DNA of 64,000 bases, taken from contig DATBHW010000055.1 in assembly GCA_036557285.1 (NCBI GenBank), positions 1 to 64,000 on the forward strand, written 5' to 3'. Positions 480-59,787 of the stretch are shown one piece after another (position 1 is the stretch's first letter; the number at the start of each line of letters is the position of its first letter). This DNA is from Ktedonobacterales bacterium. Its GTDB lineage: Bacteria; Chloroflexota; Ktedonobacteria; Ktedonobacterales; DATBGS01. Position numbers and translations under genes: made by a program. Under the pieces are notes generated by a model. That model saw only the letters and a program-made list of their open reading frames with translations, was not told the DNA's origin and searched no databases.

Positions 480-1994
480 ATGGAGCGAGACCTTCCGCTT
501 TCCACCAACCTTTTGTTGAGATGGCGTGCGCCGCGCTGGCTACAGGCGCGGCGCATCATCACCGGCTGGCGTTGGGCCGCAGCCTGGCCCGGGGTGTTTG
601 TCACTCTGGTGGCGCTGGCGCTGCGTCTGACGCTGGTCCTGCGCTATCCCTTGCTCTATGACATTGACGCCTATGGGCGCTTTACGAACCGCGCTCATCC
701 CTTCAACACACCCTGGACACCGCTCTTTCAGGTGGTGATCTATCTGCTGACGCGCGTGGCCGATTCGATTCTGGCGGTGCGGCTGCTCAGCGCGTTCTTC
801 GGCGCAACAGCGGCGCTGGCTTTCTGGCTCTTGCTGCGCCGCGCCTTTGGCGCGCCTGTCGCCTACCTGGGCGCGCTCTTGCTGGCGCTCGATCCGCTTT
901 TTGTGACGTTCAGCGTGGTTCCCTATCAAGAGGGGCTATTTCTCACGCTGGCGTTCCTGGCCCTCTGGCTGGCGCTCGCGCCGGACAAGATTCGCTGGCT
1001 TACGCTGGTCCTGGGGTTGGCCGGGCTGACACGCTACGAGGGCTGGCTGCTGGCGCTGCTCATCTGGCTGCTCTTGCTCTGGCGGCGCTGGCGCGCGGAC
1101 AGTCTGACCTGGCGCTATGCCGCCGGGAGCGCGCTGGCGCTGGCCTGGGCGCCGCTGCTCTGGATTGGGGTGAATCGCAACGTCAGCCCTGTTGGCATCG
1201 AGACGCTGACCCCAACGCTGGACCCTGCATCCCTGCTGGCAGTACTTGGCGAGGAATGGCCTGCCTGGCAGCTTCGCCTGGGTCTGGTTGGCGGCATGGT
1301 GGCGCTCGGCGGGTTGCTCTGGCTGGGCTGGCAGGCCAGGCGAGGCCGTGAACTCGCCTGGCTGCTGCTCGCCTTTCTGCTGGGCGATCTGCTGACGCTG
1401 GCTTTCTTGCGGCCTTTCGCGCCCGGCAATCTGCGCCTGCCGCTGCTCTCGCTTCCGGTGATCATTGTCGGAGTGTCCGGTCTGCTGGTGGCTGGCGCGC
1501 GGCTGCTCTGGCGTGCCGTTGGGCAGCGCCATATGCGTGTAGGCCAGCGTTTACCGATGGCTGGCGCGTTTGCCCTGGCGACGGCGGCGCTGCTCATCTG
1601 GTATCTTCCGCTTGCCATGCAGCGCGTGGCCGCTTATGGGGCGCTCGTGCGCCCGGCCTATCTGGCCGCCAATGAGCTTGGTTCGCGCGCGCCAGACACT
1701 CCAGTGGCGGTGATAGACAGCAGCAGTACCGATTTTTATGCGTTCGTCTTCTATGCTCAGCAAGATGGCTGGCATGGGCAGGCCACCGAACTGAACGCTG
1801 CCGCAGCCATAGCCCCGGCCAGCCTTGCTGAAGCGTTGATCGCTTCGCATGCTCGCCTGCTGATTGTCTATGGCCCGGCAAATGCCAGCGCCGCTGTTGC
1901 TGCGCTGGCACAGCAGGCTCTGCTCTTGCCAGGGGCGCGCGGGCCTGGCTATACCGTCTGGAATGTGCAAGCTGCGCCAGCGGCGGCAACGTGA
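480..1994 (+). CDS. Multi-pass membrane glycosyltransferase-like protein (GT39/ArnT type)
   Basis: A 504-residue protein with about ten hydrophobic segments. An acidic pair (Asp61 and Asp63, context YDIDAYGRF) sits just after the first membrane segment, where GT-C enzymes of the ArnT/PMT class place their catalytic acid; a YQEG motif follows in the next lumenal/outer loop. Such enzymes move sugars from polyprenyl-phosphate donors to acceptors on the outer face of the membrane. The start ATG at 480 follows GGAGGG (469-474) by five bases, better placed than the out-of-frame ATG at 475. The substrate cannot be read from sequence. It converges with the similar gene at 2005. Confidence 0.75.
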   Translation: MERDLPLSTNLLLRWRAPRWLQARRIITGWRWAAAWPGVFVTLVALALRLTLVLRYPLLYDIDAYGRFTNRAHPFNTPWTPLFQVVIYLLTRVADSILAVRLLSAFFGATAALAFWLLLRRAFGAPVAYLGALLLALDPLFVTFSVVPYQEGLFLTLAFLALWLALAPDKIRWLTLVLGLAGLTRYEGWLLALLIWLLLLWRRWRADSLTWRYAAGSALALAWAPLLWIGVNRNVSPVGIETLTPTLDPASLLAVLGEEWPAWQLRLGLVGGMVALGGLLWLGWQARRGRELAWLLLAFLLGDLLTLAFLRPFAPGNLRLPLLSLPVIIVGVSGLLVAGARLLWRAVGQRHMRVGQRLPMAGAFALATAALLIWYLPLAMQRVAAYGALVRPAYLAANELGSRAPDTPVAVIDSSSTDFYAFVFYAQQDGWHGQATELNAAAAIAPASLAEALIASHARLLIVYGPANASAAVAALAQQALLLPGARGPGYTVWNVQAAPAAAT

Positions 1995-2004
1995 ATAAGC
2001 TAGC

Positions 2005-3858
2005 TTATGTAGATTGGCTGCTAGCGTAATAGAAAACGATGTAGCCGTTGACGATGGCGGAGGTGTAGCCTGCCAGGCGCGGATCGCCCGAAGCGATAAG
2101 GCCGGTGAGTTGGCGCGGCACAGCGGGGTTTACCTCGGTGGTGGTCAGGTCGAAGACATAGGCGGGATGCGGCGCGGATGTAACAGCGGCTGCATAAGCT
2201 GGAAGTGGGTTGAACCCTGGCGCGAAAGCGTTGGTGTTGCTGACGACGGCGCAACTGACCTGCTCTTGCGCGTCGAACATGAGCCGATAGCAGACCCACC
2301 AGGAGGTATAGAAGCGCGTGAGGTGATGGCTCTCCAGAAAGGCGAGAAGCTGTGTATCTCTTGTCCCGGCAGGGACGCCATACCGCTGCGTGTTGGCGCT
2401 TTCTCGCACAGCCTGCGCAGCCCCGCCGATATGCACAGCGAAGAGCGCGAGGAGCAATCCGGCTGCCAGCCAGGCGATCACACGCGGGCGCGCGGGGGCA
2501 TAGCCGCGCCCACGCGCGCTGGCCCAGCGCCAGAGCCGCCGCGCCCCCTGGCAAAGCGGCTCCGCGATGAGCGGCATGCAGAGGTAGATGCTGGTAATGT
2601 AGCGGATGGATGTGTCGGAGAAGGCGTAGGAGGAGCGCGTGCTGAGGTATTGCAGGATGGTCAATCCGCCGCCAATGACCAGCATGGCCCGGCCCCAGGC
2701 GCGTGCCCGATCCAGGCTGGACAGCGGGTCGGCGAGAGCGCCGGGTCGGAACGCTTGCCAGGCGCGGCGCGCCAGCGGTACAGCAGCGATGAACCAGCAG
2801 ACGACCACCAGTAACGAGATCATCCCGCCAACCAGCGCCGCTGGCAACGCCTGGGAGAGCGTGAGGGGGCTGCCCGGATAGGGCCAGAGCGCGCAATGCT
2901 GGCAGATAGTCTCGCTGCCAAGCATGAGGGGCAGACCGATCAGGAACGTGGCGGCGATTTGCTGACCCAGCGCCGCCAGCCCGCCCAGTGGTCCGGCAGG
3001 CGCGGCGCCCTCGGAAGCCTGCAAGGCTTCAGTAAAGATAGCCCCGTGTGTGGCGCCTATGCTGATGATGAGCGGGAGCATGCCGATGGTGGCTGCGGCC
3101 AGCACAGCCAGCGCCTGGCCGGAAAGATGCCATGTGTGGTGTTTTGACGCCCTGGCTCGCCAACTGCGCGCGCCCTCTACGCTGAGCGCCAGGCCCGCTG
3201 CCAGGACAAAGGGGAGCAGCAGGATCGTCCCCCACAGGGCCAGACCCGCTGCCAGGCCGATGCCCAGGTCCAGCGTCCAGCGCGCCCAGGCGCGCGCCGG
3301 ACGCCGCAGGCGCTGGAACGTGAGCCACAGGAGCAGCGCGCCCAGCAGCAGCATGTCCTGGGCATAGTGTCCGGCGCGCAGGCCATAGAACAGTTCTTGA
3401 TAGGGGCCAAGAGCCAGCAGCAGCGTGGTCACACCGGCGACCAGCGGTGTATAGACCGCGCGGGTGAAGAGATAGAGTACGAAGAGGAAGAGGAGCATGA
3501 GGACGCCCGTAGTGACGTGCATGGCGAAATTCGTTGGGCCAAACGCCAGGAAGAAGGGAACCTGAAGATAGGCGTCGAGCGCGCCGACGTGATGAATGCC
3601 ATAGGTGAAGGCCGGGCGCGCGCCATGCCAGAGAATGTCAATGCCCATCAAGCCGGTGTTGGCCTCGTCGCTGTTGCTATAGGGCCAGCCGCGCGCCGCC
3701 AGCGTCAAGCGCAGCGCGGCGGCTCCAGCGAGAATGGCTGCGAGCAAGAGCGCCTCGCGCCCCGGCAGCCCGAACAGGGAGATTTTTCGGCCTACCAGGC
3801 GCGCAAGCCGAACTCCCGATGCCTCCTGCGCCTTCGACTCAGCGGTATTCGTCGCCAT
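2005..3858 (-). CDS. Multi-pass membrane glycosyltransferase-like protein (GT39 family)
   Basis: A 617-residue membrane protein with a cytosolic N-terminus of about 35 residues, some ten to twelve membrane segments and a soluble C-terminal domain. The motif SNSDEANTG (Asp64-Glu65) after the first membrane segment matches the position of the catalytic acid in GT39-like GT-C enzymes. The start at 3858 is preceded by GAGGAG five bases away; an ATG twelve bases upstream has no such site. It converges tail-to-tail with the GT-like gene at 480, separated by only ten bases, so this is a two-gene cluster for envelope glycan or lipid glycosylation (inference). Confidence 0.72.
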   Translation of the reverse strand: MATNTAESKAQEASGVRLARLVGRKISLFGLPGREALLLAAILAGAAALRLTLAARGWPYSNSDEANTGLMGIDILWHGARPAFTYGIHHVGALDAYLQVPFFLAFGPTNFAMHVTTGVLMLLFLFVLYLFTRAVYTPLVAGVTTLLLALGPYQELFYGLRAGHYAQDMLLLGALLLWLTFQRLRRPARAWARWTLDLGIGLAAGLALWGTILLLPFVLAAGLALSVEGARSWRARASKHHTWHLSGQALAVLAAATIGMLPLIISIGATHGAIFTEALQASEGAAPAGPLGGLAALGQQIAATFLIGLPLMLGSETICQHCALWPYPGSPLTLSQALPAALVGGMISLLVVVCWFIAAVPLARRAWQAFRPGALADPLSSLDRARAWGRAMLVIGGGLTILQYLSTRSSYAFSDTSIRYITSIYLCMPLIAEPLCQGARRLWRWASARGRGYAPARPRVIAWLAAGLLLALFAVHIGGAAQAVRESANTQRYGVPAGTRDTQLLAFLESHHLTRFYTSWWVCYRLMFDAQEQVSCAVVSNTNAFAPGFNPLPAYAAAVTSAPHPAYVFDLTTTEVNPAVPRQLTGLIASGDPRLAGYTSAIVNGYIVFYYASSQST

Positions 3859-4977: not shown

Positions 4978-6156
4978 CTAATAATCGCTGCCCGGTGGCC
5001 GCCGGGGGGGGCGGGGAGGCAGTGGGCGGCTGCCACGCGGCGAACGCGGCTCGTCGTCCCATTGGGCTACGCCACCCATCCAGGCTGGCGGTTCTTGCTC
5101 GCCAATCGGCGGGTATCCGCCGGTGGTCCTGCGTGGGCCTGGCCCTGCCGGGCCGGACGCGCCGTATCTGCGGCCCCCGGTTCCGCCAGGGCTGGCGCCA
5201 TACCAGGCGGCGCGAATAGCCCGGCGCTTGGGCGGCAGCACGATCAATAGCCCGATCAGGACGATAATAGCGATCAAGAGGAGGATAATGACGACCACAA
5301 TCGCCAGCGTGTTGCCGCCGGTGGGGGTGTTGGTTGATTGATTGCCGGGAGTCGCCCCGTTCTGATTGGTGGTGGTTGGCGAAGCCGGGACTGCTGTAGT
5401 GGGGGCGCTGGTGGGCGCGGCGGTTGGGCTGCTGCTGACCGGCGTGCCAGAAGGCGGCGTGCCAGCGGGTACGACCTGAACCAGCACCGAGGCGCTAAAG
5501 GGGGTGTCGGCTGGATAATCGGCGATGACGGTAAAAACATAGGTCGTTGCCCCCGCTTTGGGAATGAAGGTGAAATCAAACTTGCTGAGGTTGCCGCCGC
5601 TCGTAATGTTCACCGGACGTGAGTTGATTTTTTTCGTTCCCTCTGGCGGAGCGCAGATAGGGTTGGGCCTGCACTTTGATTGCCCGTAGACGTAGAGGTC
5701 ATAGTGCTTGGCGGGCGCCCAGCCGGAGCCGCTCACGGTGACGGTCCCGCCGGGGTTGGTGGTACTGCTGGAAACGGTCAGGACCGGGCCATCGGCGTGC
5801 GCAGTGGGGATTCCGCCAGTGATGAGCAGCGTCGCCAGCAGCCCCACCAGAAGCAGCGCCCCTGCCAGGGGGAGCGCCACCCCCTTCGGGGAGGGCTTCG
5901 CCAGAGCCGCTTGACCGCCCCTTTGGGGAGCGGCCCTTACGGGAACTGGGCCTGCGGCCTGGGCTGCTTGCCTCGGCTGGGCCTCGGCACTCTCGCTCCC
6001 GTTGGTCGCTCGCGCAGCCCAGTTCCCGCATTCTCCCTCGCTGCGCTCGGTCGCGGGCCGCTGCTGGGCGCGGCCATGCTCGCTCGGCTGCGCCTCGCTC
6101 GCGCGCCTCTGCCGCTTGCCTTGGCGGCGGAATCCAGATACTTCAGGGCTAGCCAT
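4978..6156 (-). CDS. Anchored Ser/Thr/Pro-rich surface protein with repeat-derived N-terminus
   Basis: A 392-residue protein. Residues about 93-120 form a hydrophobic signal/anchor ending in AHA, followed by an Ig-like domain (TVSSSTTNPGGTVTVSGSGW), a Ser/Thr/Pro linker, a second membrane segment (AIVVVIILLLIAIIVLIG) and a Gly/Pro/Arg-rich cytosolic tail. Residues about 17-92 are encoded by a genomic repeat module found elsewhere only between genes, so the N-terminus looks like an in-frame insertion. The ATG at 6156 has a weak GAGGTG upstream. If this start is wrong, translation may begin inside the repeat nearer the signal segment. Probable cell-surface protein; role unknown. Confidence 0.65.
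   Translation of the reverse strand: MASPEVSGFRRQGKRQRRASEAQPSEHGRAQQRPATERSEGECGNWAARATNGSESAEAQPRQAAQAAGPVPVRAAPQRGGQAALAKPSPKGVALPLAGALLLVGLLATLLITGGIPTAHADGPVLTVSSSTTNPGGTVTVSGSGWAPAKHYDLYVYGQSKCRPNPICAPPEGTKKINSRPVNITSGGNLSKFDFTFIPKAGATTYVFTVIADYPADTPFSASVLVQVVPAGTPPSGTPVSSSPTAAPTSAPTTAVPASPTTTNQNGATPGNQSTNTPTGGNTLAIVVVIILLLIAIIVLIGLLIVLPPKRRAIRAAWYGASPGGTGGRRYGASGPAGPGPRRTTGGYPPIGEQEPPAWMGGVAQWDDEPRSPRGSRPLPPRPPRRPPGSDY
5879..6110. repeat. Palindromic repeat module (type 2) inside a coding region
   Basis: This stretch closely matches intergenic copies at 41986-42170 and in part 30189-30279, 51370-51460 and 59505-59575. Shared blocks include CCCCTTCGGGGAGGGCTTCG, CTTGACCGCCCCTTTGGGG, CATTCTCCCTCGCTGCGCTC and CTCGCTCCCGTTGGTCGCTC. 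Here it stays open in the frame of the 4978-6156 gene and encodes the low-complexity part of its N-terminus. Confidence 0.75.
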
Positions 6157-6293
6157 GCCTGCACCTCGCTTTGCAAGTCGCTTGTTTCATGCGGATGATC
6201 GCCATTCAGATACACCAACGCGCCGCTCCTCCCAGGGGCTGAGTATAGCCTTGAGGGGAACGGCGCGTCAAGTTGTATAGGCGCAATGGGTAG

Positions 6294-23562: not shown

Positions 23563-24378
23563 TCAAGGGCTATTGCTGTTTTCCCCGCGCCATCGCTGCA
23601 TCAGGACGAGCGCGCCCATTGGGAAGAGAACGCGCATGCGCCAGGCGCGGCGGGGCTGGCGCAGCAGCCGGAAGACCCACTCCAGTCCGGCGCGCTGCAT
23701 CCAGCCGGGCGCGCGCGCCACGCGCCCGGCGATGAAGTCATACGCGCCGCCGACGCCGATGGCGACGCCCACGCCCGCCTCGCCCAGCGCCTGGGCGTGC
23801 TGGTGAATCCAGAGGTCTTGTTTGGGCGCGCCGTAAGCGACGGTGAGGACATCGGGCCGGGCGGGGCGAATCAGACCCAACATCTCTTCAGCCTCGGCTG
23901 GATCGGGCGATCCGGCATAGGTTCCCGCGATCTGAAGATCAGGGAAGCGCCGCTGGAGATTCTGCGCGACCTCTGCGGCCACGCCTGGCGCAGCCCCCAG
24001 CAGAAAGAGGCGATAGCCACGCCCGGCGCAGCGTTCGGCCAGCCGGGGCAGCAGATCGACACCCGTCACGCGCTCCGGGCAGGGGTGGCCCAGGATGCGC
24101 GAGGCCCAGACGACGCCCATGCCGTCGGCCAGAACGAGCGCGGCCTGATTGATCGTCTCGCGGAAGGCGCGGTATGTGCGCGCCGCCCAGACAAATTCGG
24201 GGTTCACGGTGATGATCTGCTGGACTGGACCACCGCGCTGGCGGTGATGGTCAATCATGGCCTCGATGCGAGCCAGCGCCCCGGCCATATCAACCCGATC
24301 AGCGCGCACGCCCAGGATCATCAGGCGCTCCGGTGGCGCTGAAAGAGGCGACGATGGGGGATTCGATGAGATGGACAT
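23563..24378 (-). CDS. WecG/TagA/CpsF family glycosyltransferase
   Basis: About 271 residues of GT26. Seen in order: ITVNPEFVWAA, LADGMGVVWASRILG, ERVTGVDLLPRLAE, YRLFLLGAAPGVAAEVA, YGAPKQDLWI and GVGGAYDFIAGRVARAPGWM, then RLLRQPRR. These enzymes add N-acetylmannosamine(uronate) to lipid-linked glycan precursors of teichoic acid or exopolysaccharide. I chose the ATG at 24378; a longer frame to 24582 would be read through the repeat at 24411-24539 and gives low-complexity sequence. The C-terminus is complete. Confidence 0.9.
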   Translation of the reverse strand: MSISSNPPSSPLSAPPERLMILGVRADRVDMAGALARIEAMIDHHRQRGGPVQQIITVNPEFVWAARTYRAFRETINQAALVLADGMGVVWASRILGHPCPERVTGVDLLPRLAERCAGRGYRLFLLGAAPGVAAEVAQNLQRRFPDLQIAGTYAGSPDPAEAEEMLGLIRPARPDVLTVAYGAPKQDLWIHQHAQALGEAGVGVAIGVGGAYDFIAGRVARAPGWMQRAGLEWVFRLLRQPRRAWRMRVLFPMGALVLMQRWRGENSNSP

Positions 24379-24410
24379 GGGCCAACCTGCTCCTGCGCTG
24401 CGCGATAGCC

Positions 24411-24539
24411 GGTTCCACCACACAGGAGGTGTTGGCAAGCGAGGCGTGGTACCTGTAGCGCCGCCTTCCAGGCGGCTCAACGCTGGCCGCCTGGAAGGCG
24501 GCGCTACAAGTGGCGTCCCCCCCAATAGGTGGTGGAACC
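24411..24539. repeat. Composite palindromic repeat, compact copy
   Basis: Outer inverted arms GGTTCCACCAC and GTGGTGGAACC enclose GAGGTGTTGGCAAGCGAGG and the core pair TGTAGCGCCGCCTTCCAGGC (from 24454) and GCCTGGAAGGCGGCGCTACA (ending 24508). The shortest copy, it shows the basic unit well. It lies upstream of wecG, probably in its 5' leader. Confidence 0.85.
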
Positions 24540-24581
24540 GCGATAGCTCAGTATAGCACGCGCCAGATGTGAGCTGTCTCA

Positions 24582-24610
24582 TTGTGTTCTATGAGAGCGC
24601 ATGTTACAAT
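24582..24610 (+). promoter_or_regulatory. Promoter of the Pro/Gln-rich membrane protein gene
   Basis: TTGTGT (24582-24587), 17-base spacer, TACAAT (24605-24610). The gene starts 145 bases downstream; nothing else is seen in between. Confidence 0.5.
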
Positions 24611-30188: not shown

Positions 30189-30279
30189 GTCGCCCCCCTT
30201 CGGGAAGGGCCGCTTGGCCGCGCCCAGCGCGGCCATTCTCGCTCGGCTGCACCTCGCTCGCGTGTCCCTTCCAGGCGGC
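30189..30279. repeat. Type-2 palindromic repeat, short copy
   Basis: CGTCGCCCCCCTTCGGGAAG, CCGCGCCCAGCGCGG, CATTCTCGCTCGGCTGCACC and CCTTCCAGGCGGC match pieces of the copies at 5879 and 51370. The block at 51370-51460 is the reverse complement of most of it. Confidence 0.75.
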
Positions 30280-41985: not shown

Positions 41986-42170
41986 TGGAGCGCCGCCCCC
42001 CTTCGGGAAGGGCTTCGCCAGAGCCGCTTGACCGCCCCTTTGGGGAGCGGCCCTTGCGGGAACTGGGTTCCCGCATTCTCCCTCGCTGCGCTCGGTCGCG
42101 GGCCGCTGCCATGCCTCGGCATTCTCGCTCCCGTTGGTCGCTCGCGCGTCCCTCCTGGCGACTCACCGCT
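41986..42170. repeat. Type-2 palindromic repeat, long copy
   Basis: This is the best intergenic match to the coding copy at 5879-6110: CCCCCTTCGGGAAGGGCTTC, GAGCCGCTTGACCGCCCCTT, TTCTCCCTCGCTGCGCTCGG and CTCGCTCCCGTTGGTCGCTC are shared in the same order. It follows the folC stop by 20 bases. Confidence 0.85.
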
Positions 42171-44940: not shown

Positions 44941-45162
44941 CTGTAGCGCCGCCTTCCAGGCGGCAGAGGCTGAGGGGTGTGGGGAGACTTGTAGCGCCGC
45001 CATCCTGGCGGCAGGGGGCTGCGGGGTGTGGGGAGACTTGTAGCGCCGCCTTCCAGGCGGCTAGTGATTCGCCAGGGCGAGCGTTCGCCCTTCGGGCCAA
45101 CGTACCAGCAGGCCAGCGTCCAGCCGCCTGGAAGGGACGCGCGAGCGACCAACGGGAGCGAG
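44941..45162. repeat. Composite palindromic repeats with three left cores
   Basis: TGTAGCGCCGCC followed by TTCCAGGCGGC or ATCCTGGCGGC at 44942, 44991 and 45038; spacer GGCTGCGGGGTGTGGGGAGA occurs twice (as GGCTGAGGGGTGTGGGGAGA the first time), giving 47-base direct repeats. The right end GGAAGGGACGCGCGAGCGAC joins a type-2 fragment. Confidence 0.85.
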
Positions 45163-45246
45163 ACGACGGGACAACGGGCCTATGCTATACTGCTGGAAAA
45201 TCGGGCAACATTTCTCTAGCGACTCTGTTATGAGAGGAGAAGCGCC

Positions 45247-51280: not shown

Positions 51281-51466
51281 GTACCGCCGCCGTCCCGGCG
51301 GCCCACCGCTGCGCCAGGGCGAGCGTTCGCCCTCCAGGCCACGGCGCCAGCGGGCCAGCGTTGAGCCGCCAGGAGGGACGCGCGAGCGAGGCGCAGCCGA
51401 GCGAGAATGGCCGCGCCCAGCGCGGCCAAGCGGCCCTTCCCGAAGGGGGCGGCGCTACAGGTGGCG
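51281..51466. repeat. Composite repeat joining type-1 and type-2 modules
   Basis: The left core GTACCGCCGCCGTCCCGGCG resembles that of the 21529 element; the right half is a type-2 module (GGACGCGCGAGCGAGGCGCA, CGAGAATGGCCGCGCCCAGC, TTCCCGAAGGGGGCGGCGC) ending in GGCGCTACAGGTGGC. It lies between the protease and acetamidase genes. Confidence 0.85.
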
Positions 51467-59316: not shown

Positions 59317-59787
59317 CACCCGCATCGGCGCGGCGTCTGTACCTGTAGCGCCGCCTTCCAGGCGGCCACCGCTGCGCCAGAGCGAGCGTGCGCCCTCCAG
59401 GCTAACGTACCAGCAGGCCAGCGTTGAGCCGACTGGAAGGCGGCGCTACAAGTGGCGTTCGCCCTCCAGGTCAACCTCCCAGCAGGCCAGCGTCCAGCCG
59501 CCTGGAGGGACGCGCGAGCGACCACCGGGAGCGAGAGCCTCTCGCTCGAAGAGGCTCAGCCGAGCGAGAATGGCCGCCCCCACCCGCATCAGCGCGGCGT
59601 CTGTACCTGTAGCGCCGCCATCTTGGCGGCCACCGCTGCGCCAGCGCGAGCGTGCGCCCTCCAGGTCAACGTACCAGCAGGCCAGCGTTGAGCCGCCTGG
59701 AAGGCGGCGCTACAAGTGGCGTTCGCCCTCCAGACTAACGTACCAGCAGGCCAGCGTCCAGCCGCCGAGACGGCGGCGCTACAAGTT
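59317..59787. repeat. Tandem-duplicated composite palindromic repeat array
   Basis: Two units about 264 bases apart start CACCCGCATC and share GCGCGGCGTCTGTACCTG, TAGCGCCGCC cores, CCAGCAGGCCAGCGTTGAGC and GGCGGCGCTACAAGTGGCG. A type-2 fragment (59505-59575) joins them. It fills the 768-base interval between DUF503 and the kinase gene; 59031-59316 holds no other feature. Confidence 0.85.

Follow-up and report, generated by a model that had tools for sequence, protein, structure and literature searches.

Coding palindromic repeats are known mainly from Rickettsia and its relatives, as the Rickettsia palindromic elements (RPE) and the repeats of Wolbachia (Ogata et al., reviewed in PMC2229807 and PMC10969869). 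RPE are palindromic and about 105–150 bp long, many lie in frame inside genes, and one product has been shown to be translated and active (gmk expression) (PMC2229807, PMC10969869); a target duplication is listed for them as unknown (PMC2229807). ERIC/RU-1 and Yersinia RU-2 are likewise small mobile repeats fused in frame, and RU-2 forms part of the predicted signal peptide in YPO1552 (PMC2229807, PMC2759123), a case close to the one studied here. Repeats of the GTAG type have been reported in Chloroflexi (PMC3733652).

Our starting point was a repeat within a predicted gene in the window (the whole stretch of 64,000 nucleotides that we analyzed, from the 5.1-Mb, 82-contig draft genome of a Ktedonobacterales bacterium). 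The family to which this repeat belongs works like RPE, and we regard it as a new family of coding palindromic repeats in another lineage, the likeness being one of behaviour. As in Rickettsia and Wolbachia, its members are palindromic and are found in intergenic DNA as well as, in frame, within various conserved genes that have nothing in common. Unlike RPE, they consist of a unit of ~63–72 nt with a target duplication and an arm complementary to the insertion site, nest in each other, and are embedded in GTAG-type REPs. A preliminary description of the locus had drawn the comparison with RPE and spoken of a possible new class; the comparison holds, in that an in-frame insertion of the same family with an empty site exists in an acyl-CoA dehydrogenase, but 'new class' is too strong because coding palindromic repeats are already known (RPE, the Wolbachia repeats and the ERIC/RU fusions). 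A search of the open-access literature did not find such repeats in Ktedonobacter-like bacteria.

The gene in question (positions 4978–6156, minus strand) encodes a predicted surface protein of 392 amino acids, as judged from the translated ORF and from distant homologues with the same architecture: a short N terminus, the repeat-encoded segment, a signal/anchor helix, an extracellular domain, a P/T linker, a transmembrane helix, and an R/G/P-rich tail. No Pfam family matched the protein above the cut-off. Homology to the dispersed repeat extends over positions 5873–6125 (minus strand), corresponding to residues about 11–95, slightly wider than the residues 17–92 originally proposed. This segment is a nested composite, B(C(A)). 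The outer unit B has its core, CGCGCGAGCGAGGCGCAGCCGAGCGAG, at 6079–6105; the P2 hairpin of B contains unit C, with its core CGCGACCGAGCGCAGCGAGGGAGA at 6032–6055; and the P2 hairpin of C contains unit A at 5948–6026, with its core at 5992–6016 (structure model, 86.5 bits, E = 3e-18; all on the minus strand). Because the left end of the composite is truncated, no clean target duplication is visible, and the right end carries a degenerate REP arm. Positions 5903–6113 are 95% identical to C55:151849–152059 (E = 3e-91), which is thus closer than the intergenic copy previously named as the best (given as 41986–42170); that copy is real, matching over 41987–42147 on the minus strand at 81% identity. 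Peptides predicted for the window protein include ATNGSESAEAQPR, and the frame through unit A reads ARATNGSESAEAQPRQAAQAAG, the same frame that most intragenic copies use.

At least 51 places in the genome match the window repeat at E ≤ 0.001 (40 of 223 candidates scored), and the core 25-mer CGCGCGAGCGACCAACGGGAGCGAG occurs in 129 copies at three or fewer mismatches, whereas the reversed control gave 0. Numbers so far beyond chance establish that the repeat is real. Our survey covered sampled loci drawn from match lists, and several copies stand at contig ends (C53, C63). Among 46 other genomes of the same order, a DNA search and a covariance model gave no convincing match to the unit, the nearest being a single 39-base match in G003 (E = 6e-4); the core 25-mer had 0 matches in the genome_contigs database, which may omit near records; and ten repeat loci matched no known ribozyme, intron or RNA family in Rfam.

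The basic unit is ~63 nt long and is accompanied by a duplicated target of about 7–12 nt, for a total of 72 nt in most intragenic copies. Its parts follow in a fixed order: the target T; the core CGCGCGAGCGACCAACGGGAGCGAG, which folds into a small hairpin containing tandem G-A mismatches; the hairpin P2; an AAGC linker; the guide-like arm T'; a loop of three bases; and a second copy of T. The consensus fold is that of a palindromic, hairpin-forming dispersed repeat, and covariation across 37 copies supports it, with 85 two-sided changes compared with 27 ± 4 in shuffles (reached in 0 of 500), a control that ignores relatedness among copies; the number of two-sided changes dropped far when the pairing partner was slid. 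Units B and C share the plan of A, and the P2 hairpin of one unit can serve as the insertion site of another.

The arm T' is complementary to T, the target at the insertion site, and subfamilies carry different arms at matching targets (GGCGCGGG, GGCCGGAG, GAAGGGA and CACGGG). The complementarity of T' to its own insertion site exceeded that in all of 20,000 permutations of the pairings; when each site class was reduced to a single representative, 10 of 20,000 permutations were equally good; two mis-parsed rows included in this test biased it against the result. Copying of the T' arm from target sequence beyond the duplication, which we considered but do not claim, fits L105 and partly L096 and is contradicted by L137, L152 and L139. 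A bolder reading, in which base pairing through T' directs a mobile element to its insertion site and the element nests in its own hairpins and progressively seeds the coding sequence of the whole genome with the same peptide, seems to us a speculative possibility, somewhat doubtful as a whole.

Contrary to the earlier impression that the repeat elsewhere occupies non-coding intervals, about one-seventh of the sampled insertion clusters sit inside a gene, and in-frame insertions are present in at least 16 protein-coding genes of this genome. Fourteen of the 114 clusters are bounded on each side by coding sequence of one strand, and in all 14 the repeat is in frame and free of stops; in the remaining two same-strand clusters the copy sits at a gene's 3′ end (L133; by sequence, typA-like and endonuclease III–like). 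To the 14 can be added a beta-mannosidase (L126), an enoyl-CoA hydratase (L139) and the window gene itself. The hosts include acyl-CoA dehydrogenases, a histone-deacetylase-like protein, enoyl-CoA hydratase, alanyl-tRNA synthetase, a MarR regulator, a radical SAM protein, a helicase, a DPP IV peptidase and beta-mannosidase, and the dominant frame in intragenic copies, ARATNGSESAEAQPRQAPAA, is also that of the window protein. A random frame would give 14 of 14 with a probability of ~(1/3)^14, stops not yet counted, a figure to be read with the fact that the plain 72-nt unit is already a multiple of three; the composite lengths of 81, 138 and 144 nt, however, also are. Two adjacent acyltransferase-like genes (L098:243–1733 and 1773–3329) each contain a separate insertion; the two differ in position and run in opposite orientations.

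The best proof case is the acyl-CoA dehydrogenase gene at L137:1313–2533, which contains a clean 72-nt in-frame insert made up of a 63-nt unit and a 9-bp target duplication. Exactly 24 residues of the L137 protein are missing in 13 of 13 orthologues from the same order (72–85% identical). At the DNA level, L137 reads TATGGCGGCGCGGGC, the 72 nt, then ATGGAC, whereas an orthologue reads TATGGGGGCGCGGGC directly followed by ATGGAT; two orthologues have a single copy of the target GGCGCGGGC, and L137 has two. When solved structures are aligned to the L137 protein, the alignment stops at residue 63–64 and restarts at 83–85. Other copies are flanked by direct repeats of 6–17 nt. The histone-deacetylase-like protein has a break like that in the acyl-CoA dehydrogenase, and the alanyl-tRNA synthetase has a similar one, judged by position. 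The genome has two alanyl-tRNA synthetase–like genes, L151:515–2383, which carries the repeat in frame, and G000:C49:10090–12165; because of this second homologue on C49, we dropped the synthetase as a proof from a single-copy essential gene.

Might these insertions be absent from the proteins, or even from the genome? Byp elements in the mitochondria of yeasts are hairpins with duplicated flanks that lie inside genes. If intragenic copies of the window family were removed from the product by mRNA splicing, or skipped by translational bypassing as at byp elements, one would expect stable hairpins flanked by direct repeats, as seen here. However, a removed element would need neither to keep the frame nor to lack stops, and the interior copies do both in 14 of 14 cases across lengths of 72, 81, 138 nt and others. 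Thus, unlike for byp elements, skipping is not needed; together with the lack of any ribozyme or intron match to Rfam among the ten loci, this makes removal very unlikely in our estimation. We give still less credence to assembly artefacts, in which repeats would have been joined into unrelated genes. The genome is indeed a draft of 82 contigs, some of which end in repeat copies, but mis-joins would not give a one-unit in-frame insertion after which the same gene resumes (14 of 14), nor a target duplication, nor an exact empty site.

For the window gene the more serious question is where translation starts, because the repeat could instead be its 5′ untranslated region, with translation beginning at GTG 5880 or GTG 5847 and the frame through the repeat open by chance. 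An open frame by itself says little, because the repeat is G+C-rich and most of its copies lack stops in several frames. In many intergenic copies the open frame runs on into the next gene downstream, and repeats upstream of genes at L002, L043 and L108 give similar spurious extensions. Moreover, with a start at GTG 5880 the protein would still have a short signal peptide. That peptide would be devoid of a positive n-region, however, whereas the residues encoded ahead of the repeat, SGFRRQGK, resemble one in sequence. The ribosome-binding signals also favor the upstream start. ATG 6156, GTG 5880 and GTG 5847 are the in-frame starts ahead of the mature domain, and ATG 6156 alone among the in-frame starts before residue 304 has a Shine-Dalgarno match, the 6-nt GAGGTG at 6162–6167 (minus strand) 5 nt ahead of it; neither GTG has any match. 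As a control within the window, a match of at least 5 nt was found at the start of 26 of 35 called genes but at only 44 of 560 (8%) interior in-frame start codons. A start after the repeat, which the preliminary description had named as the finding that would overturn its reading, therefore seems improbable to us, and translation of the repeat segment from ATG 6156, as in the other host genes, is what we infer.

From ATG 6156 the 392 codons are open (the nearest upstream stop lies about ten codons ahead of it), and the frame continues through the repeat into the hydrophobic signal/anchor segment that the translation places directly after it (5806–5865, minus strand), just as had been described. 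About 97 residues precede the hydrophobic segment in the window protein, compared with about 15–35 in distant homologues and an in-genome paralogue (lengths read from translations). In Yersinia, RU-2 supplies part of the signal peptide; here, the repeat precedes the hydrophobic segment. A codon model trained on the sampled loci gives the repeat segment a low score (–0.08, around the 4th percentile of coding windows), yet it is the best among the three forward frames. Searching the genomes of relatives for a syntenic or close orthologue of the window protein yielded distant architecture homologues only, and none of the rho neighborhoods in these genomes had an orthologue of the window gene adjoining rho. 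No orthologue that could show an empty site for this gene was found in the genomes searched; that the repeat inserted into the window gene itself is suggested by the behaviour of the family elsewhere.

Together, these results lead us to favor, with a probability of roughly 0.8, an explanation in which a mobile but non-autonomous palindromic repeat has invaded the genome, coding sequence included, and the window segment is one of its copies. The unit would spread with the help of a putative mobilizing enzyme. Frame-breaking insertions would be removed by selection, and frame-keeping ones would survive in genes because the unit is without stops and its intragenic length is a multiple of three; these would be tolerated, presumably as neutral changes, and would add a small hydrophilic loop or tail to the translated protein. 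In the window gene, three nested units would have come to lie between a positively charged N terminus and the hydrophobic signal segment and would be translated into ~85 residues that stay in the cytosol, are probably disordered and do not disturb export, the extra N-terminal length before a signal helix probably being harmless.

Intergenic copies are embedded in GTAG-type REPs (CACTTGTAGCGCCGCC, 892 occurrences compared with 14 in the control), which consist of GTAG and a hairpin, and RAYT-like Y1 transposases are encoded in L148, L146 and L147, the one in L148 being surrounded by GTAG-REP copies. The flanking repeats thus resemble GTAG REPs with their RAYT proteins. Unlike these, the A/B/C unit itself is without a GTAG foot and enters genes with a target duplication, which would speak for a cut-and-fill step rather than for insertion of the simple Y1 type. 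In its target-site duplication (9 bp in L137, with the empty site in orthologues) the unit is like a MITE of a DDE transposon.

Rickettsia and Wolbachia have small intracellular genomes, for which weak selection is an easy explanation of coding palindromic repeats. The same phenomenon appears here at a similar scale in an unrelated lineage with a 5.1-Mb genome, and it is documented by target duplications, a covarying structure and an exact empty site. How such elements move, and whether the in-frame insertion of small peptides is a general route of change in bacterial proteins, can now be tested. The repeat in the window gene is one case of this wider phenomenon, and the initial interpretation of it, partly supported by our results, was largely right.

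Further units were recognized by the structure model in the window at 30194–30274, 45128–45194, 51369–51449 and 59501–59555, some of them with variant cores. At 23566–24582 of the window, a repeat lengthens the 5′ end of a WecG/TagA-like glycosyltransferase frame, an extension that is probably spurious. Elsewhere in the genome, L153:1500–1665 holds a unit whose P2 hairpin contains a second unit; it is flanked by a 16-nt direct repeat and lies close to the start of a glycosyltransferase-like frame.
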